IMG/VR virus record: IMGVR_UViG_3300037264_000311
Coordinates: 1-24,670 of that record
Source of the DNA: a virus
Direction: 5' to 3' (one strand)
Length of the DNA stretch: 24,670 bases
This document shows, piece after piece, positions 5,535 through 18,544 of the stretch. A program made the translations under genes and the position numbers. The notes below the pieces were generated by a model that was given only the letters and a program-made list of their open reading frames with translations, had not been told where the DNA came from and made no database searches. Positions within the stretch are counted from its first letter, which is position 1. Each line of letters begins with the position of its first letter.

Positions 5535-5789
5535 TAGTAGCGTTCTCTGTCTTCTAGGATTAATGGTTGCTAGGAGCCTAACAGGACCACTGTAGAAAAC
5601 GCGGCTAGTAGAATCGTCTACCTCGGCAACTATCTCAACCATATCTTCTTTAGTGTAATGGTTGTGCCACATGGAAACTTCTACCCACCCAACATAGGAT
5701 TTGGCTAACACCTTCAGGCCCGATGTTTTGTGCCCAAGCCGACTAGCAGATCCTCTGTCACCCGTAACGATTCCGTAGAAGTCAGCCAT
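5529..5789 (-). CDS. conserved small phage protein of unknown function, 86 aa
   Basis: MADFYGIVTGDRGSASRLG followed by HKTSGLKVLAKSYVGWVEVSM. The MADFYG..G.RG.A.R.G pattern is familiar from many phage genomes as a small, probably beta-rich protein without a known role. The ATG overlaps the stop of the upstream gene (TAATG) and AGAGGA is about 10 nt upstream. It is the last gene of the long minus-strand operon. Confidence 0.8.
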   Translation of the reverse strand: MADFYGIVTGDRGSASRLGHKTSGLKVLAKSYVGWVEVSMWHNHYTKEDMVEIVAEVDDSTSRVFYSGPVRLLATINPRRQRTLLK

Positions 5790-5956
5790 TAGGAATTTTC
5801 CTCTTTTACTGCTGGAAACTGGTGCTTTAGGCAGGGGAAGTGAAATGCAAGGAGGCAGTCCCAAACTTCGTGTTCCCAAAGCAATCTACCTTCACCTAGA
5901 CAACGAGAGCAGCGGTGAAAATGAGGTTTAATGGTGAATAAGGTAGGATGGTTCAC
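5789..5956 (-). CDS. small Cys/His-rich protein, 55 aa, GTG start
   Basis: The frame opens MNHPTLFTIKPHFHRCSRC and contains CSRCLGEG plus later Cys/His residues (WDCLLAFHFPCLKHQF), consistent with one zinc site. The GTG overlaps the RNA ligase stop (GTGA), AAAGGAG sits just upstream, and its TAA overlaps the ATG of the next gene, so it fills the space exactly between two genes. No family recognised. Confidence 0.62.
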   Translation of the reverse strand: MNHPTLFTIKPHFHRCSRCLGEGRLLWEHEVWDCLLAFHFPCLKHQFPAVKEENS

Positions 5957-6543
5957 TTCACTCCTTTAGGCTTCTCATCCTTCTCTAGAGTAGCCTTGAA
6001 GAAGCATTGTCCAGCCTCGTGAAAGACAACTACTCCTTCTGGGTTCATGAATCCTGGAGATGCTAGAGAACCCTCTGTTCTAAGTCTTGAGACGCAATCT
6101 TTCACAACTTCAGTGGAGAATGGGCCAGCATATATAACAGGTACAACATGACAAGGGGAGACTGGAACAGAATTCCATCTAGTAGTATTGAATAGAGAGA
6201 ACCTCTTCTCTTTCAATCCATACTTCCTCTGAATCCCCGCTCCCCACCATTCCCCATAGTGAGTGCCAAAACCAAGGTTAGTTCTAAGCTCTTCCTGATG
6301 CTCTAGAACCCACCTAGCAAAGCCATAGTTGTCATTTTCTGGAGTAACCCATCTATTCCTAGAGCCAGCTAGAAGGATATCTCCATTTGCATTCCTGTGA
6401 AGCACATGCTCCTCAGCAGTCCCACTAGTTATTGTCCCAGCAGGGATAATGCAAATCTGCCCATTAGTCCCGTCAATCTTCTCAGTGATAATACAATCCC
6501 TGAAAAGTCTTGGAATCTTAGGGAATTCTTTAAAATCACTCAT
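5953..6543 (-). CDS. RNA ligase (Rnl2/DRB0094-like nucleotidyltransferase domain)
   Basis: 196 residues. Motif I is EKIDGTN with Lys22 as the expected AMP-accepting lysine; motif III is YGEWWG (96-101); RFSLFNT (114-120) fits motif IIIa; motif IV is EGVVV (169-173); motif V is FKATLE (182-187). These are the hallmarks of ATP-dependent RNA ligases, which seal 3'-OH/5'-phosphate nicks. The protein is only the ligase core with no extra C-terminal domain. Its ATG overlaps the preceding stop. In phages such enzymes repair tRNAs cut by host defences; that role is inferred. No polynucleotide kinase gene is in this window. Confidence 0.9.
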   Translation of the reverse strand: MSDFKEFPKIPRLFRDCIITEKIDGTNGQICIIPAGTITSGTAEEHVLHRNANGDILLAGSRNRWVTPENDNYGFARWVLEHQEELRTNLGFGTHYGEWWGAGIQRKYGLKEKRFSLFNTTRWNSVPVSPCHVVPVIYAGPFSTEVVKDCVSRLRTEGSLASPGFMNPEGVVVFHEAGQCFFKATLEKDEKPKGVK

Positions 6544-6701
6544 CTCTTTTTCCTCCTCAGTAATCTCATTGAGTTTTTCAACCTGATCCTGAAGCCAAGA
6601 TCAGGAGTCCAGCAACCAAATGAGATTATCCAGAGCAATCCATCTAGAATGTCTCCAATGAGCCCAGGGATATGAACATAGAGAAGCCTCTCCTTTGTCA
6701 T
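6540..6701 (-). CDS. small membrane protein, 53 aa, basic C-terminus
   Basis: MTKERLLYVHIPGLIGDILD leads into a hydrophobic stretch (LIGDILDGLLWIISFGCW) and a strongly basic tail (RIRLKNSMRLLRRKKR), the layout of a single-pass membrane protein with a positive cytoplasmic end. Both ends overlap neighbours (ATGA at the start; stop shared with the RNA ligase start), which supports it as a real gene. AAAGGAG lies inside its own first codons rather than upstream. Function unknown. Confidence 0.68.
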   Translation of the reverse strand: MTKERLLYVHIPGLIGDILDGLLWIISFGCWTPDLGFRIRLKNSMRLLRRKKR

Positions 6702-7276
6702 TTAAATAACTGTCTGTTGAGCTTGTAGAAAAGGATAGCCTCAATCCAAGCTTCCTTGTTTTCCAGGACAATAGGAATAAACTTAGATGCTTTCCTAGTC
6801 TCTAGCCCTTTCTTCTTCTCTGCCCTTATGAACTGCGCTGCTTCAGGGACAGAGTAGATGACATGGTGGAGGGATTTCATCTCTCTTTCTAGGTTTGCTA
6901 GAACACCATTTATTGTGTTAGCACAGCTAACTGCTAAACCATTCTGTGTTGTGATCTCTTCAAACTCAGGAATCATTGGGAAGGATAGCTTTCCATTGTT
7001 TGTATCTTCAGGCATGGCTGGTATTTCCATACTTACAATCTTAGCCGTCCACCAGTTAGCATCAAGTTCTATTGAAGAGTTGCTTGGCCCAGCCTCGATT
7101 CCCATTGTAGTTGTCTTTAGTAATGGCTTTAACTTAGAAACAACATCTAGGGAAAGTCCTACCCTTTCTGCAAAGAGTTTCATGTAGCTCTCTTCAATAT
7201 ACTTAATTACAACCTCAGGAATGGATGCACCACAGAGACTAACTCTCTTAAATGTAGACTTCTTCTTTCTTCCCAT
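6698..7276 (-). CDS. hypothetical protein, 192 aa
   Basis: MGRKKKSTFKRVSLCGASIP, then a mostly helical protein (YIEESYMKLFAERVGLSLDVVSKLK) ending QFIRAEKKKGLETRKASKF..WIEAILFYKLNRQLFK. The ATG at 7276 is preferred to a longer frame because GGAG is about 10 nt upstream and it starts just after the stop of the VWA gene. No motif recognised. Because it directly follows the VWA/metallopeptidase gene it might belong to that module. Confidence 0.75.
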   Translation of the reverse strand: MGRKKKSTFKRVSLCGASIPEVVIKYIEESYMKLFAERVGLSLDVVSKLKPLLKTTTMGIEAGPSNSSIELDANWWTAKIVSMEIPAMPEDTNNGKLSFPMIPEFEEITTQNGLAVSCANTINGVLANLEREMKSLHHVIYSVPEAAQFIRAEKKKGLETRKASKFIPIVLENKEAWIEAILFYKLNRQLFK

Positions 7277-7278
7277 TC

Positions 7279-8466
7279 TCAGCAATCTCCAAGAACTGCG
7301 AGCTTTCCCCAAGGAATGGCTGTGTTCCCATCCTTGGTTACAACCCAAAGCACGGGATAGACTGGCTTTTTCTCAGGGAATGTCCCGAGCCCATCAGTGA
7401 CATAGATCAGACAATCAGGCTTGATCTTCTTGTTCCTAATGTAGTCAAAGGGAGGGTTAAAGTCAGTCCCTCCTCCTCCTACAGCCTTCATCTTCCCAGG
7501 AGAAAGAGGAAACGAAGTGAACTCCTGAACTCCACCAATTGCAGCATCACACCAGAGAAGGACTAGTCTTTGAGGTTTCAACTGGAGACAGGATTGATTG
7601 ACTTGCTGTACGAACTGGCCTAGTTGTTTCTCAGAGATTGACCCAGAGGTATCTACTGCAACAACAACCGTGCTAGTCCCTGATCCCTTCATGCTAGGGA
7701 GATAAAGGTCTAATGCAATACCTCTCCTAGATGGACGCTTTAGGGAATAGTCCTCCTTGGACAGATTGGTAGAAAGAATCATCTTGATAGCTTTCTTATA
7801 GTCGAGGAAGAATCTCTTCTCCTTGGAGATCTCCCTCTTAATTGAGGCAGGGAGCTTCCCTTGTGCTTCAGCTACAGCTATTGCGGTTCTAAGCAGGGAT
7901 TCAAGTTGCTCTTCTACTTCCCCAGCCTTGTCTGGAGAGGGCTCCCTGATCTCACAGAATGGCCCAGGATGAGAGTTTGAGCCATTAGGCGGGCCAGGGG
8001 TGCCAGAACCATTAGAACCCTGCCCTGGGCTATTCTGAGCCTCCTGAAGCAGTCTATTGTAAACCTCATCCCTAGGTAGACCCTTCCATTCAGGCTTGTA
8101 GAATGCTTCCTTGGGGAGTCTATATCCCATGTCATCCAGCATGTCATGGATACAGTGATCCGCTGCTAGATTCCCAATCCTCTTGTTAGGCTTGAGAGCC
8201 ATCCATAGACAATCCTTCCTGATGTTGTGACAAGCCTCATGGATTACAGCAAACACATGGTTGTAGCTAGGGTCTCCAGCAAAGTAGGATGGTCCCCAGA
8301 TATAGCGTGTCCCATCTGTTGCTGTGGTAGGGATGTTCTCCCTAACCCAGGGTGCTCCCATAATCATTACTGCCAGGAAAGGATCATCCAAGACAACCTT
8401 GTTCTTAGCCTTGTCCAGATTCTCCTCTACCTGGTACATATTCAGTTTCTCTTGTTTGGATGCCAT
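7279..8466 (-). CDS. putative metallopeptidase with VWA-like domain (DUF2201-type)
   Basis: 395 residues in two parts. The N-terminal half has HEACH (76-80), an HExxH-type zinc motif, followed by NLAADHCIHDML (99-110), which can supply a further ligand, as in the putative metallopeptidases fused to VWA-like domains. A Gly/Pro/Ser/Asn-rich linker spans about 145-170. The C-terminal half has VVVAVDTSGSIS with the MIDAS-type DxSGS (272-276) and a later GGGGTDFNPPF, so a metal-dependent protein-binding site is likely. Such proteins work with MoxR-type AAA+ ATPases; one is encoded three genes upstream. Substrate unknown. Confidence 0.85.
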   Translation of the reverse strand: MASKQEKLNMYQVEENLDKAKNKVVLDDPFLAVMIMGAPWVRENIPTTATDGTRYIWGPSYFAGDPSYNHVFAVIHEACHNIRKDCLWMALKPNKRIGNLAADHCIHDMLDDMGYRLPKEAFYKPEWKGLPRDEVYNRLLQEAQNSPGQGSNGSGTPGPPNGSNSHPGPFCEIREPSPDKAGEVEEQLESLLRTAIAVAEAQGKLPASIKREISKEKRFFLDYKKAIKMILSTNLSKEDYSLKRPSRRGIALDLYLPSMKGSGTSTVVVAVDTSGSISEKQLGQFVQQVNQSCLQLKPQRLVLLWCDAAIGGVQEFTSFPLSPGKMKAVGGGGTDFNPPFDYIRNKKIKPDCLIYVTDGLGTFPEKKPVYPVLWVVTKDGNTAIPWGKLAVLGDC

Positions 8467-8661
8467 TTAGTAGTACCCACTCAATGCGACATGAGCATGA
8501 CAGTTCAGGCATATCCTCCATGCTGCTTGATGCATAAACCAAGTAGTAACACGAAAGGTATTCCCATCTGCTGTCTTTATGGACTTAAGTTTTGCGCCAC
8601 ACTTGGCACAGAACCTAGGAAGTGTGTAGTGAATGCGAATTACTTTCTTTCTGGATGCCAT
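8467..8661 (-). CDS. small zinc-ribbon protein, 64 aa
   Basis: MASRKKVIRIHYTLPRFCAK with CAKCG at residues 18-22 and CLNCH near 51-55, a two-pair zinc ribbon. It overlaps the upstream gene by 22 nt and abuts the VWA gene (TAA then ATG), whose first codons ATG GCA TCC it shares. It sits between the AAA+ and VWA genes and may be part of that module. No family name recognised. Confidence 0.75.
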   Translation of the reverse strand: MASRKKVIRIHYTLPRFCAKCGAKLKSIKTADGNTFRVTTWFMHQAAWRICLNCHAHVALSGYY

Positions 8662-8936
8662 CTCTTTTTAGCCTTGATCCACTCTATTCCTACGGTTATG
8701 CATCCATATCCCAAGCAGGGACTAAACGATCCTTCACAGATCAATATTGGAAACAGGGGTGATCCTTTTGCTTGATTCCTGATTAAACTATCTAGTCTAT
8801 ATTTGCGGTTATCCCACCATACGAAGTCTAAGAGAAGTTTTTCAGCTAACTCCATCCTTACAGGATCCAAGAGAGTTTTACCTACATTTGAAGTGTAGTG
8901 GATGGAAGCAAGGAATTCGTATCTAGGATCTTCCAT
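8640..8936 (-). CDS. hypothetical protein, 98 aa
   Basis: MEDPRYEFLASIHYTSNVGK, then a leucine-rich helix (MELAEKLLLDFVWWDNRKY) and a hydrophobic stretch with three cysteines (FPILICEGSFSPCLGYGCIT). No clear Shine-Dalgarno, but it lies 17 nt after the AAA+ gene and is probably read through by coupling. No family recognised; position within the AAA+/VWA cluster is the only functional hint. Confidence 0.68.
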   Translation of the reverse strand: MEDPRYEFLASIHYTSNVGKTLLDPVRMELAEKLLLDFVWWDNRKYRLDSLIRNQAKGSPLFPILICEGSFSPCLGYGCITVGIEWIKAKKRWHPERK

Positions 8937-8953
8937 AGTTTCAGGCTAAAGCT

Positions 8954-10045
8954 CTACAACAGGATGTTCTGATTGTCCTTGATCCACTCAACCCTCTGTG
9001 AAGAATTGGCAAATGCTACTAGCTTCTTTGCCAGATCCTGAGTAATCAGGGTTTGGAAGTCCTTAGGGAGCCTTCGGACAAACTTCATCAAGGGAGTGAA
9101 CTCTTCCTTCTTGGTGCATTTGGTTACTAGCAAAGCTGCTTGTGTAAACAAGCAACCCGGCTTTCTTGGAATTCTGCAACCCTCGGGATCAGAGATGATC
9201 TCATCAAAGGGAGAAAGCTCATCCACTGAATCAGCCCAACCCTTGAACTCCATGGTGACAGGGAATCCAATGGTTCCAGCGATCAAGTCCCAATCCCTCT
9301 CCTCACCAGACTGGTCCATGAGGTTAGCTACCCCTTCCCAGGAACGATGAGTAGGGTGAGCATAGGAGAAGTCGTTGTAGGTCTCCCAGAATGCCTTTTT
9401 GGTCATCCCACCGGCACCCTCGTTAGGCCAGAACTCCACATGGAGCAGATCAGGGCGAACATTCTTGATGAAAGCTGTAGGAAGGTAATGCTTCCCTCTA
9501 GCCAGCATGTAATCTACCCAAGTTTCAGGCTTAGGAGGCTTCAGATAGATGATTGTAAGTCTATTGACAGTGGTAGGAGGAAGTTCTACGACTCCAACGT
9601 TGTCATCTGAAGTGTTCCCCGCTCCAATGATGAATGTTCCAGGAGGGAAAGCATAGAGATCTCTCCCTTCCAATAGCTTGTTAGCAGACTTCAGAGTTGT
9701 AGCATTTACAATGGTCAACTCATCTAGTGCAATCAGCGGTCCCTTCCCCGTTCTCTTGTATGATTCCTCCGCCATAAAGTGAACCATTGATGCTGTGGGG
9801 ACTGTACGAGTAACTCCATCTTCACCCTTGATAGGGAAATTGATCCCTGAGAGATCCGTGGGATCATGGTTCTCAAGTCTGAAGTTGAGAGTCTCTCTCC
9901 CAGTAGCAGAGGAATAAGCCTCCATGCTCTGAGTCTTCCCAATCCCTCTAGCTCCAAGGATCAGAGGAACCCTTCCAGCCTTCTCACAGCGCTGCAACTT
10001 TGCGGGTAGAGCCTCGAATGGAGTCCAAATGACGTTCTTTTCCAT
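8954..10045 (-). CDS. MoxR/CobS-type AAA+ ATPase
   Basis: 363 residues. Walker A GARGIGKT (31-38), Walker B LIALDE (104-109), sensor-1-like IIGAGNTSDD (139-148) and a TTVNRL segment (158-163) with a candidate arginine finger give a complete AAA+ core of the MoxR/dynein-like class. The C-terminal part (from about 200) is a helical lid of unknown specificity. MoxR ATPases remodel protein complexes together with VWA-domain partners; the VWA/metallopeptidase gene is downstream and another conserved partner upstream. AGAGGA is about 8 nt before the ATG. Confidence 0.88.
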   Translation of the reverse strand: MEKNVIWTPFEALPAKLQRCEKAGRVPLILGARGIGKTQSMEAYSSATGRETLNFRLENHDPTDLSGINFPIKGEDGVTRTVPTASMVHFMAEESYKRTGKGPLIALDELTIVNATTLKSANKLLEGRDLYAFPPGTFIIGAGNTSDDNVGVVELPPTTVNRLTIIYLKPPKPETWVDYMLARGKHYLPTAFIKNVRPDLLHVEFWPNEGAGGMTKKAFWETYNDFSYAHPTHRSWEGVANLMDQSGEERDWDLIAGTIGFPVTMEFKGWADSVDELSPFDEIISDPEGCRIPRKPGCLFTQAALLVTKCTKKEEFTPLMKFVRRLPKDFQTLITQDLAKKLVAFANSSQRVEWIKDNQNILL

Positions 10046-10058
10046 TTCTACATCCTCT

Positions 10059-10382
10059 CTATGTATTGATTAGAAGAAGGGTTTGCGCAGTCTTATAGAG
10101 TTCTTTTGCCTTTTCCCAGTAAGGCATCTTAGAAATCTCATCCTTAGAGACAGTCCAATCTCCAAGGGATGCAAACTTCTCCCCTAGAACCCTAAGAGCT
10201 TTCTTGTTCTTCCCAATGACAATTGCAAAACCTGATGGAGAGTGGGTCAGGGAGTAGCCCCTGAAGCCTGTATTCTTAATGCTGCTCTTTATGAGTACAA
10301 TCCCAGGGGCTATCTCCTCTCCTATCAGTGTTATCTCTCCTGCTCCTCTCCATACCTTGGTAGGAACTTTCTTATAGCGCAT
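10059..10382 (-). CDS. hypothetical protein, 107 aa, paralogue of the next gene upstream
   Basis: MRYKKVPTKVWRGAGEITLI, with core segments RGYSLTHSPSGFAIVIGKNK, ALRVLGEKFASLGDW and MPYWEKAKELYKTA. The adjacent upstream gene has the same order of elements (RGWMLQHN, LLVGKKLASICSW, EPYWDEVQRIRGTA), so the two look like a diverged tandem duplication. AGGA lies 7 nt upstream and the start overlaps the previous gene by 11 nt. Located between the conserved partner and the AAA+ ATPase genes. Family and function unknown. Confidence 0.75.
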   Translation of the reverse strand: MRYKKVPTKVWRGAGEITLIGEEIAPGIVLIKSSIKNTGFRGYSLTHSPSGFAIVIGKNKKALRVLGEKFASLGDWTVSKDEISKMPYWEKAKELYKTAQTLLLINT

Positions 10383-10704
10383 GGAAAATTCCTAGCTTAA
10401 GGGCTGTTCCTCTGATTCTTTGTACCTCATCCCAATATGGCTCTTTCATAATGTCCCTAAGAAGGGCATTCCAGCTACAAATAGAAGCCAACTTCTTCCC
10501 TACAAGCAGAACTGTTGACTTCCTCCTTCCTACCCCTAAACAAGTGAACCATTTAATGTTATGCTGTAGCATCCAGCCTCTAAGACTTCTCTGAATATTC
10601 AATTCTCTCGTGTCAACTAGAGACAGTCCTGGACATATGACTTTGTTAGATACCAAGAATCCCTCTAGCTTTCTCCGAGTAATGACGCCTGAGAGAAGCA
10701 TCAT
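10372..10704 (-). CDS. hypothetical protein, 110 aa, paralogue of the next gene downstream
   Basis: MMLLSGVITRRKLEGFLVSN, then RGWMLQHNIKWFTCLG, STVLLVGKKLASICSWNALL and KEPYWDEVQRIRGTA, parallel to the neighbouring 107-aa protein. Its first 59 nt overlap the end of the large gene upstream, so the second ATG or an alternative start further in is possible. No motif recognised. Confidence 0.7.
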   Translation of the reverse strand: MMLLSGVITRRKLEGFLVSNKVICPGLSLVDTRELNIQRSLRGWMLQHNIKWFTCLGVGRRKSTVLLVGKKLASICSWNALLRDIMKEPYWDEVQRIRGTALKLGIFHAL

Positions 10705-11503
10705 TCCTCAACTGTTCCACAGTAGAAGTCTCCTCACCCTTTGGAGGGAGAAGATCATTTGCAATCTTGTCAATCAGGATCTGCACAACTGGGTCATTGG
10801 TGAAGTTGAGGTTAGGGAGGACTTCCACAACGTCTCTGAGGTTAGTAAGAATCGTGTCATGCATCCTCTTGCCATCCCCATAGTTGTCCAGCTTGTCTAC
10901 GAGCAACTGAATAGGCTTAAGGATCCTAGAGTGCAGATCAGTCATAGCCACCTTGACCTTATCCGCATTCTCAGAGTCAACATCAGCCTTGATCCTTTCC
11001 AGTTCCTCCTCAGGAACATCAAGCCTGAAGTCTGCTCCTCTCAGGATTGGGACAAAGCGAATGGTGCTATAGAACATTCCCTTTAGCTTGTCAGGAGAGG
11101 GATACCATGAAGGAACCAGAGACTTGAGAATGATCTTGTCCTCAAGCACTGTCTCCTCATAGTGCTCGAAGAACTTCTCCCTAGCCTCGTGGAAGGAGTC
11201 AATGCACTTACTGATTCTCTCCCTATAGAAAGTGAATCCTGAAGTCTTGAAGACTCTAGCTCCTCTATCCTCCCAAGGAGAGGTAATGTCGTAGTGAGTG
11301 GTTCTAATCATCCTCCCAGCAGCTAGAGCAGCATCCTTGAACCCACCATGAGTACAGAGTTTGATCGTGGTCTTGCTCTTACTCCTGGCAATGTCAAAGT
11401 CAGAAGAGACCTTATCCTCTGCGATCCCTGATCTGACTTCCCCTTCCCACATTCCAATTGTGAGTTTAGCTCCCATGAGGGAGCCATTGATTTGACTTGT
11501 CAT
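10646..11503 (-). CDS. conserved partner of phage MoxR/VWA cassettes (DUF3150-like), 285 aa
   Basis: MTSQINGSLMGAKLTIGMWE; landmarks are TTHYDITSPWEDRGARVF (about 88-105), FYRERI..FHEAREKFFEHYEE, a YPSPDKLKGMFY segment, GADFRLDVPEEELERIKADV and a late helical LTNLRDVVEVLPNLNFTND. I recognise this order from proteins of phages and mobile elements that lie beside MoxR-type ATPases and VWA proteins; the DUF3150 label is from memory and uncertain. No catalytic motif is visible, so it is probably a structural or adaptor subunit. A strong AAGGAG precedes the ATG, and the start overlaps the preceding stop. Confidence 0.78.
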   Translation of the reverse strand: MTSQINGSLMGAKLTIGMWEGEVRSGIAEDKVSSDFDIARSKSKTTIKLCTHGGFKDAALAAGRMIRTTHYDITSPWEDRGARVFKTSGFTFYRERISKCIDSFHEAREKFFEHYEETVLEDKIILKSLVPSWYPSPDKLKGMFYSTIRFVPILRGADFRLDVPEEELERIKADVDSENADKVKVAMTDLHSRILKPIQLLVDKLDNYGDGKRMHDTILTNLRDVVEVLPNLNFTNDPVVQILIDKIANDLLPPKGEETSTVEQLRNDASLRRHYSEKARGILGI

Positions 11504-11703
11504 GGTTCTCTCCTTTTTGCAACTTCTTTGATGAATTTAACTATTGATTTGTATAGCCTTCTCTCTGCTATTGGTTCTCTCTCCTTATCCCTAATAAATT
11601 CTTCAAACATGGGGATTAGTTTCTTACAGGCATTTGGCTTATAACGAACAAAGGCCATAGCTCGCAAAAAACAATCCTCAACAATTACAACTTCTTTCTT
11701 CAT
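11500..11703 (-). CDS. small basic protein, 67 aa
   Basis: MKKEVVIVEDCFLRAMAFVR, ending in a lysine/arginine-rich helix (RRLYKSIVKFIKEVAKRREP). Both its start and stop overlap neighbours by 4 nt (ATGA), fitting the operon pattern. No family recognised; helical and possibly nucleic-acid or protein binding. Confidence 0.7.
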   Translation of the reverse strand: MKKEVVIVEDCFLRAMAFVRYKPNACKKLIPMFEEFIRDKEREPIAERRLYKSIVKFIKEVAKRREP

Positions 11704-11840
11704 TTCTTCTCTCCAGCAAGAACAACAAATCCACCCATTCCCTGTAGCTTCTTTATGATCTCAAGTGCTTCAGGGGTTAGCAGTTTTTGTGTCTTAGTTG
11801 CTTCAGCCTCTATATCAACCCAGGCGCGTGGTTTAATCAT
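11700..11840 (-). CDS. tiny protein, 46 aa
   Basis: MIKPRAWVDIEAEATKTQKL, then LTPEALEIIKKLQGMGGFVV and LAGEKK. The ATG overlaps the stop of the upstream gene (ATGA) and its stop overlaps the next start (ATGA), so initiation is probably by coupling, as no strong ribosome site is seen. No family recognised. Confidence 0.65.
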   Translation of the reverse strand: MIKPRAWVDIEAEATKTQKLLTPEALEIIKKLQGMGGFVVLAGEKK

Positions 11841-12001
11841 CTTAAAGGTTTTTTGTCATGATTCTCTCCTTTTTCATTTTCCCAGTAAGACACATTCTCT
11901 TTCTTTCTTTGCTTTAGTTCCTTTAATAGAGCCTTGATTCTCTGCTCGGCCAAGATTCGATTACAGGCTTTAAGGTTCTTATCGTGATCCTGTTGATCCA
12001 T
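11837..12001 (-). CDS. tiny lysine-rich protein, 54 aa
   Basis: MDQQDHDKNLKACNRILAEQ, then RIKALLKELKQRKKENVSYW: a charged helical protein. It starts inside the end of the upstream gene (23 nt overlap) and ends in an ATGA overlap with the next gene. The Shine-Dalgarno signal is modest (GAGAAGG). No family recognised. Confidence 0.62.
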   Translation of the reverse strand: MDQQDHDKNLKACNRILAEQRIKALLKELKQRKKENVSYWENEKGENHDKKPLR

Positions 12002-12143
12002 TGGCCTTCTCATAGATCTTGGCTAGCAAGAAACGAATGTCCATAGAAGGTGACTTGGGAAACAGTCGTAATTGTCTCTCTATCCTCCTCACACCTTTAC
12101 CAATACCATGCCCTTTACGCTGCTTTGGATGCCTTATGCTCAC
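11979..12143 (-). CDS. tiny basic protein, 54 aa, GTG start
   Basis: Read from GTG as MSIRHPKQRKGHGIGKGVRR, then IERQLRLFPKSPSMDIRFLL, a strongly basic N-terminus followed by a helix. GAGGA lies about 9 nt before the GTG. It overlaps both the tiny membrane gene upstream (29 nt) and the next gene. Coding potential is inferred from the packed arrangement and sensible composition; no family recognised. Confidence 0.58.
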   Translation of the reverse strand: MSIRHPKQRKGHGIGKGVRRIERQLRLFPKSPSMDIRFLLAKIYEKANGSTGSR

Positions 12144-12234
12144 GGCGATACTTCCTCACTCCTCTTAAGACCCACAGCTTGTAAGAGACAGTCCCAAGAC
12201 TGAACCCAAGGAGAAATGGCACAATTACTTCCAT
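12115..12234 (-). CDS. tiny single-pass membrane protein, 39 aa
   Basis: MEVIVPFLLGFSLGTVSYKL then WVLRGVRKYRREHKASKAA: a hydrophobic helix (residues 3-18) and a basic cytoplasm-like tail. It overlaps the preceding gene by 10 nt and the next by 29 nt. One of several tiny membrane proteins in this operon; role unknown. Confidence 0.62.
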   Translation of the reverse strand: MEVIVPFLLGFSLGTVSYKLWVLRGVRKYRREHKASKAA

Positions 12235-12425
12235 GGCTCCACCCCCAAGATGGTCAACCACAATCCTGCGATTATGTAGCCTGCATGGTGAGTAACTCCA
12301 TGCTTATCATCTACATACATCTTGTCAGCGTGCTTCCTTCCAAAGAGTCTCAGAAGATCCTTTCTTGGATGAGTCAGATTATGGTATGTCTTCCCAAACT
12401 GATCTACTGCCATGTAGCGAGTCAA
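12225..12425 (-). CDS. conserved-looking small phage protein, 66 aa, TTG start
   Basis: Read from TTG as MTRYMAVDQFGKTYHNLTHP, then RKDLLRLFGRKHADKMYVDD and a C-terminal HHAGYIIAGLWLTILGVEPW. GGAGGAG is 5 nt before the TTG, and the TTG overlaps the upstream stop (TTGA); an ATG four codons later is less well placed. The DQxGxTYHxLTHPRKxL pattern resembles small proteins seen in other phages. Function unknown. Confidence 0.72.
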   Translation of the reverse strand: MTRYMAVDQFGKTYHNLTHPRKDLLRLFGRKHADKMYVDDKHGVTHHAGYIIAGLWLTILGVEPWK

Positions 12426-12526
12426 TCCTTCTCCTCCCCAAGATCAACAGCCTTCTTGATTAGTGAGAGAAAGATCAAGCACAAAGGGATTGCGACAATA
12501 AACCCTACGATTTCATCCTTACCCAT
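12422..12526 (-). CDS. tiny single-pass membrane protein, 34 aa
   Basis: MGKDEIVGFIVAIPLCLIFL then SLIKKAVDLGEEKD: one transmembrane helix (residues 6-22) and a charged tail. A GAGAGAGG site precedes the ATG, it starts just after the upstream stop and its TGA overlaps the next TTG start. No family recognised. Confidence 0.65.
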   Translation of the reverse strand: MGKDEIVGFIVAIPLCLIFLSLIKKAVDLGEEKD

Positions 12527-12528
12527 TG

Positions 12529-12762
12529 TTACCTCTCTCTGAGAGTCTCTAGCAACTCAGTTGACTCAGGATTGGGGAACACTCCCTCTTCATTGCAATC
12601 TATGAAGTAAAGGAGTGTGTTATAGACTCCCTTGAACTCACAACAACAGTCCTTCAAGGAGTCTAGCTCTGCGCGGTCCAAGTGGTCTTGCAAGGCTGTC
12701 TCAAGGTCCTCCCTGAGACTCTTGTAGTCCAGAAATGAGGCTGATTGATTCTTGGTTCTCAA
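12529..12762 (-). CDS. hypothetical acidic protein, 77 aa, TTG start
   Basis: Starts MRTKNQSASFLDYKSLREDL from a TTG with GGAGGAG 7 nt upstream. Helical, acidic, with three adjacent cysteines (DCCCEF, about residues 38-43) and two later acidic helices (STELLETLRER). No family recognised. It may bind a metal, but the spacing does not match a known zinc finger. Confidence 0.72.
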   Translation of the reverse strand: MRTKNQSASFLDYKSLREDLETALQDHLDRAELDSLKDCCCEFKGVYNTLLYFIDCNEEGVFPNPESTELLETLRER

Positions 12763-12765
12763 TGG

Positions 12766-12867
12766 TTATCTCCTCCCTCTGGGACCATTCTTCCAGAGGT
12801 CAAGCATCAGAACCAACGTCGCAAACGTCATGGCTATCGACAGGATCAAGAAGTCTCTGAGGATCAT
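12766..12867 (-). CDS. tiny single-pass membrane protein, 33 aa
   Basis: MILRDFLILSIAMTFATLVL then MLDLWKNGPRGRR: a hydrophobic helix and basic tail. GGGAGG lies 5 nt before the ATG. The frame stays open upstream to a TTG at 12939 (57 aa), but that start has no ribosome site and lies inside the hairpin region, so the short form is preferred. It is the first gene after the structured element at 12887-12964. Confidence 0.65.
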   Translation of the reverse strand: MILRDFLILSIAMTFATLVLMLDLWKNGPRGRR

Positions 12868-12886
12868 TTCAACCTCCCACAAATAG

Positions 12887-12964
12887 AAATAGCCCCCAAT
12901 AGCAGCACCTAGGGTCACAGGGTCGTCGCCCTTCCCCAAGGAATATAGCTATCAGGGGCTATTT
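12887..12964 (-). ncRNA. candidate structured RNA / regulatory leader with a 17-bp stem
   Basis: On the minus strand AAATAGCCCCTGATAGC (12964-12948) pairs with GCTATTGGGGGCTATTT (12903-12887): 15 Watson-Crick pairs plus two adjacent G-U pairs, without interruption. The two wobble positions would be C-A mismatches in the plus-strand transcript, so the pairing favours minus-strand RNA, the direction of the operon. The 44-nt loop can form CCUU-GGGG-AAGG or AGGG..CCCU hairpins. It lies between the 52-aa gene and the tiny membrane gene, whose GGGAGG begins shortly after the stem. A U-rich stretch follows, so attenuation or termination is possible. Confidence 0.6.
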
Positions 12965-12971
12965 GTTGGTA

Positions 12972-13130
12972 CTAATTGTACTCGGCCAGTCCGCCTCCAC
13001 GGAGGGCCTTGATGACCTTCGCATTCGTGTCCACCAGCAAAGCAGCCGTGCTGCTCATGTAGGCCGTCTGCTTCACCTGGGACTTCTCCGTCTTCCTCTT
13101 GTCGGTGTTGTACTTCCTGATTCTGCTCAC
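12972..13130 (-). CDS. small basic protein, 52 aa, GTG start
   Basis: Read from GTG as MSRIRKYNTDKRKTEKSQVK, then QTAYMSSTAALLVDTNAKVI and KALRGGGLAEYN. AGGAGG is 5 nt upstream, which fixes the start. Basic N-terminus followed by an alanine-rich helix. No family recognised. It is the last gene before the structured RNA element. Confidence 0.72.
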   Translation of the reverse strand: MSRIRKYNTDKRKTEKSQVKQTAYMSSTAALLVDTNAKVIKALRGGGLAEYN

Positions 13131-13153
13131 ATCTTCCTCCTTAGGTCAATCAT

Positions 13154-13240
13154 TTACAGTCCCCTCCGACACTTAGCACAGAGAGGCCCGTTCTGCACCC
13201 ATCTGCCACAGAAGATGCACTTCAGAGCCCAGTTGAACAT
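13154..13240 (-). CDS. tiny zinc-ribbon-like protein, 28 aa
   Basis: MFNWALKCIFCGRWVQNGPL then CAKCRRGL: two CxxC pairs (residues 8-11 and 21-24) in a minimal zinc ribbon. AGGAAGG lies about 14 nt before the ATG; an adjacent GTG one codon earlier is an alternative. It fits exactly between two genes. Coding status is supported mainly by the cysteine pattern. Confidence 0.55.
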   Translation of the reverse strand: MFNWALKCIFCGRWVQNGPLCAKCRRGL

Positions 13241-13242
13241 CA

Positions 13243-13530
13243 CTAGGCCACCTTCCTGAGCCACTCGTTGAAGGGCAGGAGCACTTCCTTCTTTGTGGCG
13301 TAGAGTCTGGACTGCTCCTTTGCTACTTCCCTGAGCCTCTCAGCACTCTGCTCATCCTTGCGCTTCAGAGCAACGAAGCTCAGGTGATTGTAGTGCTTCC
13401 AGATGCGCTTGGCACTTCGGAGGTAGTTCTTGGGTCTCTGGAACATCGTGTAAGACCCAATCTTGTTCTTCCTCTTACCAGCGGATCCGGGAATGCCCTT
13501 CTTGCTGCTCTTCCCTTTGTTCTCCATCAC
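13243..13530 (-). CDS. basic helical protein, 95 aa
   Basis: MMENKGKSSKKGIPGSAGKR begins a disordered lysine/glycine-rich tail (about 1-25), followed by a helical part (YLRSAKRIWKHYNHLSFVAL .. SAERLREVAKEQSRLYATKK). AAGGAG sits 5 nt before the GTG, which overlaps the nucleotidyltransferase stop (GTGA); the next codon is ATG and may be used instead. Overall charge suggests nucleic-acid contact. No family recognised. Confidence 0.75.
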   Translation of the reverse strand: MMENKGKSSKKGIPGSAGKRKNKIGSYTMFQRPKNYLRSAKRIWKHYNHLSFVALKRKDEQSAERLREVAKEQSRLYATKKEVLLPFNEWLRKVA

Positions 13531-13931
13531 TTCAACTCCTTTCCAGCGTAGTAAACCTCAGACAAGAGGTCCCAGAGAGCCCTCATTGCCAACTTGGAAT
13601 GTACAGCATTTGGGAATATGGTGGACTTTAGCATCAAGTCCTGAATCACCCTCTTTGCCATGACATCCAAACAAAGCTGGACATCGATCTCCATCCCATG
13701 CAGGTTAGCGTGCCATACCTCAACAGTCCCCTTGTCGAGATAGGAGTGGCGTGGGAGCTTGCTGAATCCCTGACTGGACAACCATCCTCTGATGCTTTCT
13801 GTGTCTTTAGTGAAATAGTCCCAATCGCTGTAGACAGTGGCAGTCCCGAAGTACCTTGAGCCTGTCAAGAAGAAGGGCTGAGGCGGGTAGACTAGGACTG
13901 GGATTTGGGATCCTAGCACATTATCCTTCAC
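13527..13931 (-). CDS. polymerase-beta-superfamily nucleotidyltransferase, 134 aa
   Basis: FFLTGSRYFGTATVYSDWDY (about 20-39) is the signature GSxxxG..SDxD with Gly24-Ser25 and Asp36/Asp38. HGMEIDVQL (79-87) supplies the third carboxylate, Asp83. This is a minimal nucleotidyltransferase fold that transfers NMP to an unknown acceptor; relatives act on antibiotics, tRNA, or toxins. It occurs alone, with no HEPN partner visible next door. GTG start overlapping the upstream stop (GTGA), with GGAGGGG in front. With the RNA ligase in the same operon, an RNA-directed role is conceivable. Confidence 0.82.
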   Translation of the reverse strand: MKDNVLGSQIPVLVYPPQPFFLTGSRYFGTATVYSDWDYFTKDTESIRGWLSSQGFSKLPRHSYLDKGTVEVWHANLHGMEIDVQLCLDVMAKRVIQDLMLKSTIFPNAVHSKLAMRALWDLLSEVYYAGKELK

Positions 13932-14095
13932 TTCCCCCTCCTATTGTCGATGGGATCACCAACGTTGGTCTTGACTCCCTTTGCGGGGAGATTCCTCATG
14001 CGACTCGTCTTACCCTTGGTGGAGCGATTGATGAAAGGCTTTCTCCCACCAATCTCCCTATCCAGAGTGTCTTGGTTTGCGAGAGGCTTATTCAT
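13928..14095 (-). CDS. small basic disordered protein, 55 aa
   Basis: MNKPLANQDTLDREIGGRKP, then FINRSTKGKTSRMRNLPAKG and VKTNVGDPIDNRRGK. Few hydrophobic residues, rich in Lys/Arg/Asn, likely unstructured. Its start overlaps the preceding stop (ATGA) and its stop overlaps the next GTG (GTGA). No family recognised. Confidence 0.68.
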   Translation of the reverse strand: MNKPLANQDTLDREIGGRKPFINRSTKGKTSRMRNLPAKGVKTNVGDPIDNRRGK

Positions 14096-14322
14096 TCAAA
14101 GTCCTCCTCTTCTTGGATTCCCACAGGCTCTCCAGCATGGAAACAGGCATAGCAGAGATCCATCTTCTCCCTATGCCCACACTTACTGATCTTCCCATCC
14201 TCAACCCAGCACTGGAGACCGTAGTTGTAGTGCAGGTTACGAGTCACGTTGCTATTGCTCCATGCCTCGTTTGCCTCTTTGTACTCCACACGGCATGATG
14301 GACAGTCACATCCAGGGATCAC
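14092..14322 (-). CDS. cysteine-rich zinc-binding protein, 76 aa, GTG start
   Basis: Opens VIPGCDCPSCRVEYKEANEA and continues through LQCWVEDGKISKCGHREKMD to LCYACFHAGE. CDCPSC, CWVED..KCGH and CYAC suggest one or two zinc sites. The GTG at 14322 is chosen over a start five codons earlier because AAGGAG is 5 nt upstream and GTGA overlaps the previous stop. No family recognised. Confidence 0.75.
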   Translation of the reverse strand: MIPGCDCPSCRVEYKEANEAWSNSNVTRNLHYNYGLQCWVEDGKISKCGHREKMDLCYACFHAGEPVGIQEEEDFE

Positions 14323-14507
14323 TTCAACTCCTTCCACTTCAAGCTCATGAAGGGCTTGTGGTAGAGGTTGGCACCCTCTACCTTGTAGAAGTGCTGGTAG
14401 CTGTGGGTCAGCCTCACGTTGGAGGCTAGGATCTGTGCCTCCATCTCCTGCTTCGAGAGGGGACCAACCAACGTCTTGAAACGGATGATCTTGCTCTTGT
14501 CTATCAT
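14319..14507 (-). CDS. first gene of the 9-kb minus-strand operon, 62 aa, unknown
   Basis: MIDKSKIIRFKTLVGPLSKQ, then EMEAQILASNVRLTHSYQHF and YKVEGANLYHKPF..KWKELK. AAGGAG lies 7 nt before the ATG, so a longer frame running through the GC-rich leader is rejected. Being promoter-proximal it should be among the first products made. No family recognised. Confidence 0.75.
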   Translation of the reverse strand: MIDKSKIIRFKTLVGPLSKQEMEAQILASNVRLTHSYQHFYKVEGANLYHKPFMSLKWKELK

Positions 14508-14552
14508 GGCTTCTCTCCTTGGGCTATACATCTCCCATTGTGCCAAGGCCGA

Positions 14553-14567
14553 CCCCGGCTGCCGGGG
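14553..14567. other. GC-rich hairpin in the leader of the minus-strand operon
   Basis: CCCCGG-CTG-CCGGGG: 6 perfect GC pairs around a 3-nt loop, within a GC-rich patch (about 14545-14590) in otherwise average sequence. On the minus-strand transcript it would lie about 45-60 nt upstream of the first start codon, where it could affect early transcription or translation. Confidence 0.45.
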
Positions 14568-14600
14568 ATACGCGGCGGCTGCCGGCGAGTCTAACCCCAA

Positions 14601-14630
14601 TTGAATAGCACTAAGCACTTAGGCTACAAT
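14601..14630 (+). promoter_or_regulatory. sigma70-like promoter for the late (packaging/head) operon
   Basis: TTGAAT (14601-14606) and TACAAT (14625-14630) with an 18-nt spacer. The expected start lies just before GAGGAG and the ATG of the small terminase gene at 14649. The minus-strand promoter on the other side is not clear. Confidence 0.6.
14611..14622. promoter_or_regulatory. candidate operator in the late promoter spacer
   Basis: CTAAG-CA-CTTAG, 5-bp perfect arms, lies between the -35 and -10 boxes. A dimeric repressor or activator bound here would contact the promoter directly. Short enough to be chance. Confidence 0.35.
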
Positions 14631-14648
14631 ACCTTGTGAGGAGATCAT

Positions 14649-15083
14649 ATGGCTAGAAGGATTACTTCCAAGAACAAAGCATGGTTGGATGCATTCTTTG
14701 GAGAGGCTCTCCATGATGCAACTAAAGCCTCTAGATTGCTAGGGTTCAAGAATCCATCACAAACTGGTTATAGGCTAAAGAAGAAGCTAGCAGATGTGAT
14801 CGAAACTAGGTCTAAAGAGTTAGCAACTAAAGCTTCTGTCTCAGCAATGGAATGCCTAAACATTCTCAGTGAAGTAGCCCGTGATCCTTCTCACAGAGAT
14901 AGAGTTAGAGCAGCAGAGATACTGTCTAAGATACATGGATTGCAGTCAGAGCGCATCCAGATAAGTCAAGACAGGTCAACACTTATCAAGGATTTAGAGA
15001 GCACATTATCAGCTATTGCAAGCAAGATGAATAGCAATATTACTGCTGCTATTGATACCTCTCCTGCTGTGACAAGTAACTAG
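14649..15083 (+). CDS. terS: terminase small subunit
   Basis: 144 residues. WLDAFFGEALHDATKASRLL followed by GFKNPSQTGYRLKKKLADVI is the N-terminal helix-turn-helix of small terminase subunits that recognise the packaging site. The middle (ATKASVSAMECLNILSEVAR and RVRAAEILSKIHGLQSE) is the oligomerisation helix region of the Terminase_2-like families. GAGGAG precedes the ATG. It is first in the late operon and lies upstream of the large subunit, but separated from it by an unusual 740-nt gap. Such subunits form a ring that guides the large subunit to the DNA. Confidence 0.85.
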   Translation: MARRITSKNKAWLDAFFGEALHDATKASRLLGFKNPSQTGYRLKKKLADVIETRSKELATKASVSAMECLNILSEVARDPSHRDRVRAAEILSKIHGLQSERIQISQDRSTLIKDLESTLSAIASKMNSNITAAIDTSPAVTSN

Positions 15084-15087
15084 TTAC
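15076..15087. repeat. 12-bp perfect palindrome at the terS stop
   Basis: GTAACTAGTTAC is its own reverse complement and contains the terS stop codon. CTAGTTAC recurs at 15114-15121 and the inverse CTAGTAAC at 15092-15099, so this is a small cluster of related sites, possibly for packaging or regulation. Confidence 0.4.
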
Positions 15088-15158
15088 CTACTGTTACTAG
15101 CCACTCAATACCTCTAGTTACATATAATAGGCAAGCATAAAACTCTGTCAAGGGGGGG

Positions 15159-15193
15159 TTGTGACACTTTCTACTTTCCTTGTGACACTTTCT
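15159..15193 (+). repeat. two direct repeats spaced exactly 21 nt
   Basis: TTGTGACACTTTCT occurs at 15159-15172 and 15180-15193, identical in all 14 positions. The 21-nt period equals two turns of DNA, so proteins bound at both would lie on one face. The rest of 15084-15369 shows a TATAAT at 15123-15128 without a convincing -35 box and no gene. Confidence 0.55.
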
Positions 15194-15369
15194 TCAGTCA
15201 CAATTAATGGCTATTGTGTCATTAGCTCGCAGAGTAGGAACCGGTGCTATGGTTTGTCTAGTTCTCAGACAGCCCCAGTTCACATTGGTCACTTTGATCG
15301 TTAGGCTCCCCGGCAGTCCATGCGTATCCTTGTCATGGGGCGGCAGAAAGGCTCCACGGGAGAAACCTA

Positions 15370-15558
15370 GTGCAAATCAAGTTGTCCGCCAAGAAGTCCA
15401 AGGAGGCGCCGGTCAACGGGACCAAGCGCGTGTGGGAGAGCGAGTTCAAGGGCGAGGCGTGGTTCCACGCTTCCGGGTCCTACGGCACCGTCCACCTGCG
15501 CGTCAGCGACCCGCTCTCCGCGACCATCGCGGCGACGCTGCCGGAGCCGGTGAAGTAG
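15370..15558 (+). CDS. small GC-rich gene inserted between the terminase subunits, 62 aa
   Basis: Starts with GTG (GGGAG 7 nt upstream): MQIKLSAKKSKEAPVNGTKR, then a basic/aromatic middle and GTVHLRVSDPLSATIAATLP. Nearly all codons end in G or C (GCG, GTC, CGC, CTG), unlike terS and terL on either side, which favour AGA/AGG arginine codons. This strongly suggests a late acquisition from a GC-rich genome. No family recognised; beta-rich by appearance. A short upstream frame (15320-15370) ends next to its start. Confidence 0.6.
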   Translation: MQIKLSAKKSKEAPVNGTKRVWESEFKGEAWFHASGSYGTVHLRVSDPLSATIAATLPEPVK

Positions 15559-15570
15559 GCTCCGAGGCAA

Positions 15571-15617
15571 TCCTCCTCCCTGCGAGCGAATGGGAGAGCC
15601 GTATACAGGGAGGAGGA
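15571..15617. repeat. 12-bp perfect inverted repeat with 23-nt loop
   Basis: TCCTCCTCCCTG (15571-15582) is the exact inverse of CAGGGAGGAGGA (15606-15617). It follows the small GC-rich gene by 12 nt, where a terminator might lie, but no T-run follows. The arms resemble anti-Shine-Dalgarno and Shine-Dalgarno sequence. The remaining 15618-15822 has no convincing plus-strand gene or ribosome site. Confidence 0.5.
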
Positions 15618-15688
15618 CCCCATCCGTACCCCGAGAGGGTAGAGGCTGCACATTAAGCGCAGCGACCTTAGCCATAGTCCACAGTAGG

Positions 15689-15807
15689 TCACAGAATGCT
15701 TGCCATCTCTTGATTCAATCTTATCAACATCTTAACTTTCCCATTGGGACCCTCAATCCTATACAGAGCCTTGGAGTCCCTTAACCCCCCAATGAATTGC
15801 TTACCAT
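15689..15807 (-). pseudogene. possible gene remnant or slippery-site frame, minus strand
   Basis: One minus-strand frame reads GGLRDSKALYRIEGPNGKVK then MLIRLNQEMASIL and a TGA, which looks like protein-coding sequence, but it has no start codon. An ATG at 15807 begins MVSNSLGG and stops at once; a -1 shift on the run G-GGG-GGT would join the two. No Shine-Dalgarno is seen. It could be a decayed gene, a frameshifted gene or coincidence. Confidence 0.25.
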
Positions 15808-15822
15808 GCTATATTTCTAGTA

Positions 15823-17466
15823 ATGCTACCTAAGAACCTCCCCGAGCTACTGAAGAACAAAGAGAGCCTGACAACTCCTCAGCTAATGAATCTGCTGAAG
15901 GAGATCAAGGATTATGCAGCTTCAATCGGGATTGGAACAGCAAGTCTCCCAGACAACCCAGCAGACTTTGCTGTCCAGTTCTCCAAGGGAAGATGGCAGA
16001 AATTCCCCCATCTTGAGAGGTTGTCACAAGAACTCTCTGATCTAGAGCAGGGGAGGAATAACAGGTTACTAGTAACCTTCCCTCCTCGTCACGGTAAGTC
16101 ATTCCTAATCTCAGTCTGGTTCCCCCTCTGGTTACTGGCTAGAAACCCAAAGAGAAAGGTTGTTGTTCTAGGTCATGAAGCAGAGTTCGCTGCTGGCTGG
16201 GGTAGACAGGTCAGGAACTGGATCATCGAGAATGGGGAACAGTTCAATCTGAGACTCGACCCAGGAACCACAGCAGCAGATAGGTGGACTCTAACCGCTG
16301 GTGGTGGGATGACAACCGCTGGATCGAAGGGAGTTGTTGGTAGGGGTGCTGATGCTCTAATCATTGACGACCCCTATGCTGATGCTGAAGAAGCCATGAG
16401 TGAGGTCATAAGGGAGAAGGTCTGGGATGGCTTTGTTACTGGAGCCCTAACTCGACTAGAGCCAGGAGGCTTCGTAGTAGTCCTCCACCAGAGGTGGCAT
16501 GAGGATGACCTTATTGGGAAGATTGTAAAGCTGAGCGAGAGTGGGGAGTTCCCCAAGTTCAGGATAGTGAACTTCCCAGCAATAGCAGGGGAGAATGATG
16601 TTCTTGGGAGGAAGATCGGAGAACCTCTCTGGCCTGAGAGATTCCCACTCGAAACAGAAGAGAGGGATGGAAGAATCATCATTGGCTTGAATGACATAAG
16701 AAAGGGAATGAGCCCTTACCAATGGTCCAGCTTGTACATGCAGAGTCCAACTCCCGAAGAAGGGAATGCTGTAAAGAGATCTTGGTGGAAGTTCTACAAT
16801 GCTCTCCCTGCTGACATAGATGTGTGGATTCAGTCATGGGATCTAGCCTTCAAGGATATGAAGCAGTCTGATTACACAGTTGGACAAGTCTGGGCTAGAC
16901 GTGGTGCAGAGATCTATCTCATAGATCAAGTTAGAGACCACATGAATGCTAGAGATGTGATCTCCCAGATCAGGCAATGGAAGGTAAAGTATCCTCTAGC
17001 CCTAGCCAAGGTAATTGAGGACAAGGCTTCTGGCCCAGCGGTAATCCAGATCCTCCAGAAGGAAGTCCAGGGAATGATCCCAATGAAGGCTGTTGGCTCC
17101 AAGGACCAGAGACTTCAATCGGTGATCCCTCTCATCGAGGCAGGGAATGTGTTCCTACCCAATCCAGAGAAGAACCGCTGGGTTTGGGAGTTCATCGAGG
17201 AGTTTGCGGCATTCCCGCGTGGAACCTATGATGACCAGCTAGATGCTGGAGTTCATGCTTTACGGTATATGATCCCCCAGGGATGGCTCTACCAAGCCAA
17301 GGTCAAGAGGAAGGAAGCCCTTGATGCCGCAACGGAGACCAACCCTTTAGAGATCCATTCCAAGCTGGTAATGGGTGGAATCTCCAAGGCTGTGAAGAAG
17401 GCTGGAGATAAGTTCAACAAGCAGGCTATGAACTTAGGCAGATCGAGGTACAGAGGCAGATGGTAA
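15823..17466 (+). CDS. terL: terminase large subunit (ATPase and nuclease)
   Basis: 547 residues. Walker A PPRHGKS (87-93) and Walker B LIIDD (179-183) form the packaging ATPase. The C-terminal RNase-H-like nuclease has IQSWDLAFK with Asp340, VIEDKASG (398-405) and the final YDDQLDAG acid cluster. LSPYQ/WSSLYMQSP-type segment before the nuclease is typical of the Terminase_6 C-terminal half. The enzyme cuts concatemers and drives DNA into the head through the portal. No clear ribosome site precedes the ATG, so its start is the least certain feature. It belongs to the late operon. Confidence 0.95.
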   Translation: MLPKNLPELLKNKESLTTPQLMNLLKEIKDYAASIGIGTASLPDNPADFAVQFSKGRWQKFPHLERLSQELSDLEQGRNNRLLVTFPPRHGKSFLISVWFPLWLLARNPKRKVVVLGHEAEFAAGWGRQVRNWIIENGEQFNLRLDPGTTAADRWTLTAGGGMTTAGSKGVVGRGADALIIDDPYADAEEAMSEVIREKVWDGFVTGALTRLEPGGFVVVLHQRWHEDDLIGKIVKLSESGEFPKFRIVNFPAIAGENDVLGRKIGEPLWPERFPLETEERDGRIIIGLNDIRKGMSPYQWSSLYMQSPTPEEGNAVKRSWWKFYNALPADIDVWIQSWDLAFKDMKQSDYTVGQVWARRGAEIYLIDQVRDHMNARDVISQIRQWKVKYPLALAKVIEDKASGPAVIQILQKEVQGMIPMKAVGSKDQRLQSVIPLIEAGNVFLPNPEKNRWVWEFIEEFAAFPRGTYDDQLDAGVHALRYMIPQGWLYQAKVKRKEALDAATETNPLEIHSKLVMGGISKAVKKAGDKFNKQAMNLGRSRYRGRW

Positions 17467-17500
17467 CTAGTTGTGTTATAACAGCTTTCGTGGAGTAACT

Positions 17501-18238
17501 ATGGCTGATCCTCGGAACATTCCGGTATTCTCCCCTGAGGCTTATCTGCAACGCAGAGCCATATCTTCGATGCTATCTCCATTTGGAATTAGTCCTGAGA
17601 GCTTGGATGCTTATGAGGCTATTACACAAGGGCCAGCAGAGTTGGTGGACCAAGGATACCGGGGATATCTCCAAAGCCAGGGGTTAAAGATGCAAGGGAA
17701 TGAAACTGTTGGAGATCTAGCCCAGAATGCCATTGATCCTGAGGGAAAGTCTTTGATTCCATTCAGAACTTTAGCCAACGTAGCCAGAGATCCCTTAACT
17801 TGGGCAGCAACCGTAGGACCAGCAAAGGCAATTGGAGCGGTAGACGAGGGGATACCAAACAGCATCTACAAACCTATTTCCAGAGTCTTTCCCTGGGTTG
17901 AGCAAGCAGATAGGGCCAAGATGGCTGTCAAGGCTATAGTAAAGGGAGCCCCTCCCTCTGGAGAAATGACTGTTGCAAGTCCACTTAAAGGAGGAAAGGG
18001 ATTTACCTTCAATCCTGTAATGGATAAGTATGCAAGAAAAGAATCATACAAATCTGGGTTTACTCCCGATAGAAGAATTAAGATTGGATCTGATGTTGGC
18101 CTTCCAGAATTTCTTAAGGGTATGCCTGACTTCCTCCCACAAATAAAGCCCACAATAGCCAAACCAGATTGGGCCATGAAACCAGTTTCTGAGCCTACTC
18201 TCGCGGATATTGCAAGGTCTATGGATATTGTATTTTAA
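17501..18238 (+). CDS. hypothetical protein, 245 aa, between large terminase and portal
   Basis: MADPRNIPVFSPEAYLQRRA; the ATG is chosen because GTGGAG is 5 nt upstream (a TTG ten codons earlier lacks a site). No domain recognised. The protein is rich in proline, glycine and alanine, with an ARDPLTWAATVGPAKAIGA segment (about 96-114) that could be a weak amphipathic helix. Position in the late operon suggests a virion or head-assembly protein. Confidence 0.78.
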   Translation: MADPRNIPVFSPEAYLQRRAISSMLSPFGISPESLDAYEAITQGPAELVDQGYRGYLQSQGLKMQGNETVGDLAQNAIDPEGKSLIPFRTLANVARDPLTWAATVGPAKAIGAVDEGIPNSIYKPISRVFPWVEQADRAKMAVKAIVKGAPPSGEMTVASPLKGGKGFTFNPVMDKYARKESYKSGFTPDRRIKIGSDVGLPEFLKGMPDFLPQIKPTIAKPDWAMKPVSEPTLADIARSMDIVF

Positions 18239-18247
18239 GAGGAAGCT

Positions 18248-18544
18248 ATGTTCTCTAAGGACAAAGACAGGGAAGTGGCGAGACTTAGTGCTCTTGCCAA
18301 TGATCTTCTGGATCAGTTGAAGATGGAACGCTCGATCTGGGCTCAAGAGAGAAGAGAGATGCTGGATAGGATCATGGCTCTGACAGCCCCTAACGCCATT
18401 AGAATCCTCCGTCCCCAAGATCCATCTAACAGGGAGAGGTTCATACAGTCTCCCCCAAAGTCGCTGTTGCCTGGGGCTCGCCCAGACATGAGACCACCAA
18501 TTAAGCCTGTAGAGTTCACAGGTCCCCCTGAGAAGGCAATCTAA
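18248..18544 (+). CDS. small coiled-coil protein before the portal, 98 aa
   Basis: MFSKDKDREVARLSALANDL, then a charged helix (LLDQLKMERSIWAQERREML) and a proline-rich tail (LLPGARPDMRPPIKPVEF). GAGGAAGC precedes the ATG; its stop overlaps the portal ATG (TAATG), so the two are coupled. No family recognised. Confidence 0.8.
   Translation: MFSKDKDREVARLSALANDLLDQLKMERSIWAQERREMLDRIMALTAPNAIRILRPQDPSNRERFIQSPPKSLLPGARPDMRPPIKPVEFTGPPEKAI

Follow-up and report, generated by a model that had tools for sequence, protein, structure and literature searches.

A stable operon-strand RNA hairpin, possibly of intrinsic-terminator type, behind a small gene of an uncultivated phage

The DNA analysed here, referred to as the window, is the whole of IMG/VR record IMGVR_UViG_3300037264_000311, 24,670 bases from an uncultivated phage. 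The right half is read from the plus strand and encodes the small and large terminase subunits, a P22-like portal and a major head protein. The left half is read mostly from the minus strand. Here lie some 20 small genes, together with those for an ATPase (phrog_1297), a phrog_1314 protein, an RNA ligase and a PD-(D/E)XK nuclease. This minus operon runs into a plus-strand AAA_25 ATPase gene (4463-5347). Among GenBank phages the record has no close relative. IMG/VR contained no close relatives of three window proteins: the 52-aa protein encoded upstream of the hairpin described below, the ATPase and a VWA/HNH-type protein. The main features are listed in Table 1.

Table 1. Features of the hairpin locus and of two further sites in the window
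Feature	Position	Strand	Remarks
Upstream 52-codon gene	12972-13130	minus	GTG start, AGGAGG ribosome site, no family match
Hairpin 5' arm, AAAUAGCCCCUGAUAGC	12948-12964	minus	First base 7 nt past upstream stop codon
Hairpin loop, 44 nt	12904-12947	minus	Short nested pairings CCU/AGG, GGG/CCC, AGGG/CCCU
Hairpin 3' arm, GCUAUUGGGGGCUAUUU	12887-12903	minus	Pairs with 5' arm
Interrupted U-rich tract, UAUUUCUAUUUG	12880-12891	minus	T score 2.79; after last G-C pair
GGGAGG ribosome-binding site of downstream gene	12873-12878	minus	8 nt past 3' arm
Downstream 33-codon small membrane-type gene	12766-12867	minus	ATG start, no family match
Comparator hairpin	5442-5490	minus	End of same minus operon, z -6.5
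Terminase small subunit	14649-15083	plus	phrog_51, weak match

Elsewhere in the window, the terminase subunit genes are separated by a 739-nt gap (15084-15822). This contains a GC-rich stretch and a 15-bp hairpin (15569-15619), and its overall fold is only modestly better than shuffles. A gene block at 2700-4200 is seemingly GC-richer than the rest of the window and is possibly a recent acquisition; genes 2721-3389 and 3332-3922, within this block, have no family match. A candidate minus-strand promoter at 15151-15124 (an 11/12 site) was not significant, as one such site occurs in 17% of simulated windows.

Our starting point was an earlier note on this DNA, which described a hairpin in a sizeable operon gap, directly upstream of a tiny membrane gene. 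The gap is indeed there: 104 nt of non-coding DNA (12868-12971), one of few such gaps in the operon, with no signal in it other than the hairpin. The TAG codon of the 52-codon gene is at 12972 and the hairpin begins 7 nt later. On the 3' side of the hairpin, CUAUUUGU is followed by GGGAGG and then by the ATG of the membrane-type gene. The hairpin is flanked by A-rich sequence on the 5' side and U-rich sequence on the 3' side; the 3' arm contributes its final 5 bases to the U-rich tract. We also considered a coding explanation. A 57-codon frame with a TTG start (12766-12939) spans the 3' arm, yet leaves the 5' arm outside. Note that no ribosome site precedes the TTG, and that translation starts more plausibly at the ATG at 12867, which has GGGAGG.

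The two 17-nt arms that had been reported were found exactly at the positions in Table 1, 44 nt apart. In minus-strand RNA they form 17 uninterrupted pairs, 15 of them Watson-Crick, with a tandem U-G/G-U. The 78-nt hairpin (12964-12887) has a minimum free energy (MFE) of -40.9 kcal/mol and a z-score of -5.4. For a 91-nt stretch that includes the hairpin, z is -5.0. None of 200 shuffles was equally stable. Except for the last A-U pair, pair probabilities in the outer stem are 0.9-1. We conclude that the RNA hairpin on the operon strand is real and unusually stable, and this is well supported.

How often might such a stem arise by chance? With G-U pairs counted and the span limited to 110 nt, 22 of 200 simulated windows (11%) contained a stem of 17 or more uninterrupted pairs. 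Hence, a stem of this length is not in itself rare. A stem with an energy of -26.8 or below was present in 4% of simulated windows. Not one of 300 contained a stem that combined at least 15 Watson-Crick pairs with a maximum of two G-U pairs. The placement of the hairpin, in a non-coding gap of 104 nt, makes a chance origin less likely still. Note that, in a coarse z-score scan, several other 110-nt stretches of the window reached z of -4 or below.

The G-U pairs had been said to form on the operon strand only, and to be a sign of selection for RNA structure on that strand. The asymmetry itself was confirmed. Plus-strand RNA has C-A mismatches at these positions, and folds less stably than minus-strand RNA (-35.6 versus -41.5 kcal/mol). 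As an argument for selection it is weak, because every transition that hits a Watson-Crick pair leaves one strand with G-U and its complement with C-A. By reasoning, rather than by computation, two adjacent transitions would both favour the operon strand in about 1 in 4 cases. The claims made for the loop fared worse. A CCUU-GGGG-AAGG hairpin was proposed, but its pair probability is 0 and forcing it costs 9.9 kcal/mol. The suggested pseudoknot, in which the GGGG of this loop hairpin pairs with a downstream CCC, is thus unsupported. Folded alone, the 44-nt loop is no better than shuffles (z -0.7).

That the element resembles no known riboswitch or tRNA was borne out by searches: Rfam gave 0 matches at the gathering threshold and ARAGORN 0 genes. 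With permissive Rfam thresholds there was no match for the hairpin, and a single chance match elsewhere (E 1.9). When 2.9 million viral contigs (IMG/VR) and 84,980 genomes (GTDB) were searched with a pattern in which the G-U positions were left free, no homologous hairpin came up; nor did phage records yield a nucleotide homologue. Alignment of the portal protein identified 50 related IMG/VR loci, few of which extend to the early region. Among those that do, none has a homologous hairpin. One relative, L095 (IMGVR_UViG_3300031949_000029, 1-19999), carries 32 tRNA genes within the first 20 kb; the window record has 0.

Next, consider hairpins that share only the base of the stem. The pattern AATAGCCCC...GGGGCTATT matched 23 viral stretches, which is about our estimate for chance, so only matches with long stems carry weight; their loops are unrelated to that of the window hairpin. 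Five matches (L006, L015, L017, L018 and L019) have continuous stems of at least 14 pairs and lie between convergent genes. A sixth, L014, has tandem short hairpins, also between convergent genes. In these six, the hairpin is mostly 5-12 nt past a stop codon; the exceptions are L015, in which the first arm overlaps the stop, and L019, in which the arm begins 161 nt past it. The tail in L017, TATTTCTGTTTG, is nearly identical to that of the window hairpin. In a wider survey of phage gaps, long hairpins were not enriched at convergent junctions, as judged with a gene caller that overlooks genes of fewer than 60 codons and that mislabelled the window's own gap. Within the window, the comparator hairpin lies between convergent genes, 5529-5879 on the minus strand and the AAA_25 ATPase gene on the plus strand, and is without a long U-tract. 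It is probably the natural terminator of the operon, acting in both directions.

The closest relative with an early region is L046 (IMGVR_UViG_3300005518_000034), whose terminase is 52% identical. On its minus strand, at 1634-1703, TTTTTT follows an 18-bp stem whose 34-nt loop is structured. This hairpin is inside the minus operon of L046, and the next gene downstream is on the same strand. It also ends a tract of about 770 nt (1630-2400, minus strand; also L093, 17748-18519) that has no convincing genes and a high density of long hairpins, several starting TTGAG. Over 821 nt, z is -8 for the tract; an equally long coding control gave -0.6. The tract has no Rfam match and no phage nucleotide match. 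It may represent a new large structured RNA of phages, akin to GOLLD or ROOL. Hence, the more unusual RNA of this phage group may sit in L046 rather than in the window.

What, then, does the window hairpin do? Its surroundings argue for a terminator, or for a 3'-end hairpin, over a new regulatory RNA. Most likely, it is an ordinary leaky transcription-stop or mRNA-end signal and not a new kind of RNA. More specifically, we give a probability of about one half to a hairpin of intrinsic-terminator type, at the 3' end of the upstream small gene and inside the minus operon. Several lines of evidence favour this. A stable hairpin forms on the operon strand, 7 nt past a stop codon, in a non-coding gap. 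Long hairpins with the same base, in unrelated phages, sit where bidirectional terminators sit. L046 has a U6-tailed 18-bp stem within its own minus operon. The comparator hairpin, the strongest at the operon's end, has a similarly poor U-tract. Finally, ribosomes are known to block hairpins close behind stop codons (PMC4824070).

Other properties fit this reading less well. Intrinsic terminators have a GC-rich stem-loop and a short loop. The former is present, with the folding energy and z-score given above; the loop, at 44 nt and with weak inner pairing, is long for a terminator, although analogous hairpins with loops of 18-34 nt exist. A terminator scan, restricted to loops of 3-8 nt, did not list the hairpin. 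The interrupted U-tract has a T score similar to that of L017 (2.77). The d'Aubenton-Carafa score is -16 for the window hairpin, where the threshold is 0, and +11 to +27 for L006 and L017. The absence of a homologue, in the searches above, also counts against termination, as does the lack of enrichment of long hairpins at convergent junctions in the wider survey. The hairpin is just past a stop codon, but co-directional genes continue downstream. Since the U-tract is weak, and the score below the classical threshold, leaky rather than strong termination is expected.

If the hairpin is a terminator, RNA polymerase would pause and partly terminate at the U-rich tract. Promoter-proximal small genes would then be expressed above distal genes. 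A ribosome at the stop codon of the 52-codon gene would cover the 5' arm and allow read-through, so termination would occur mainly when translation lags. Distal genes of the operon would be transcribed through read-through or antitermination, and the 3' end of the short transcript may likewise be shielded by this hairpin. Between the hairpin and the genes nearest downstream, no good promoter was detected; transcription of these genes therefore probably comes from read-through, or from starts further upstream within coding sequence. Precedent exists for the translational component. Moving a terminator to 5 bp after a stop codon reduced termination from about 90% to less than 10%, with ribosomes blocking the hairpin, and the lambda tR2 terminator is almost silenced by translating ribosomes when 5-6 nt past a stop codon (PMC4824070). 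By analogy, with a spacing of 7 nt, translation of the 52-codon gene would possibly silence the window hairpin likewise, provided that the host couples transcription to translation. Hairpin structure, position and flanks are what the analysis shows; termination, its leakiness and its dependence on translation are what we infer.

The main rivals are RNase III processing and 3'-end protection, which fit the structure nearly as well as termination. T7-type RNase III sites lie between early genes. A hairpin that cuts or segments the operon mRNA, as in the T7 early region, would tune the stability and translation of flanking genes without stopping transcription. RNase III sites have stems of about 20 bp or more. 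Here, 17 continuous pairs and about 10 interrupted inner pairs give an irregular structure of about 27 pairs, which may be long enough. The hairpin sits exactly between a stop codon and the next ribosome site of a co-directional operon, the transcribed strand has the better structure, and the poor U-tract suits processing better than termination. However, the A-rich and U-rich flanks, and the U6-tailed hairpin of L046, resemble terminators, and we regard a processing or protective role as somewhat unlikely. A neutral inverted repeat, whether a product of chance or a remnant of gene exchange, would accord with the 11% frequency of 17-pair stems in simulated windows, with similar coarse z-scores elsewhere in the window and with the lack of demonstrated conservation. 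It is made improbable by the absence of comparably Watson-Crick-rich stems from 300 simulations, and by the exact fit into one of the few operon gaps, directly past a stop codon.

A dedicated cis-regulatory RNA (riboswitch-like, protein-binding or pseudoknotted) might instead control the tiny membrane gene. The very stable outer stem is, after all, immediately 5' of that gene's ribosome site. Yet the stem does not include the ribosome site itself, the loop is no more structured than shuffles and the loop hairpin proposed for it does not form in our predictions. Rfam gave no match, even at permissive thresholds, and our searches found no homologue that would show conservation. Such a role is quite improbable. 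Highly improbable, to our minds, is a more elaborate version, where a lineage-specific regulatory RNA would split the operon into immediate-early and delayed-early genes, with control via translation of the 52-codon gene or a phage antiterminator. The hairpin would then be a reduced counterpart of the large hairpin-rich RNA that L046 has in an analogous position.

If the terminator reading is right, the hairpin marks where this phage lineage balances promoter-proximal small genes against distal genes for DNA metabolism. It would also be one more long-stem, long-loop hairpin of terminator type overlooked by standard scans.

Comparison with known systems places the hairpin as follows. Like the ribosome-suppressed terminators described previously, it is within the ribosome footprint of a stop codon (7 nt here; 5-6 nt there), but that system is lambda tR2 in E. 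coli (PMC4824070), whereas termination and its coupling to translation are putative here. The L046 hairpin, from a related phage, similarly has a stem with G-U pairs, a loop with its own helix and a location between co-directional small genes. It differs in having no sequence similarity to the window hairpin, a clear U6 tail and about 700 nt of preceding hairpins that the window does not have. T7-type RNase III sites are also long irregular hairpins between co-directional early genes; the window hairpin differs in its terminator-like flanks, and RNase III cleavage here is only putative. Unlike the intrinsic terminators of L006, L014, L015, L017 and L018, which are at convergent junctions, the window hairpin is inside a co-directional operon, with its 44-nt loop, interrupted U-tract and score below the classical threshold. 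Nevertheless, these terminators have, as in the window, a GC-rich stem with AAATA.../...TATTT flanks just past a stop codon, and several have the same 9-nt stem base.
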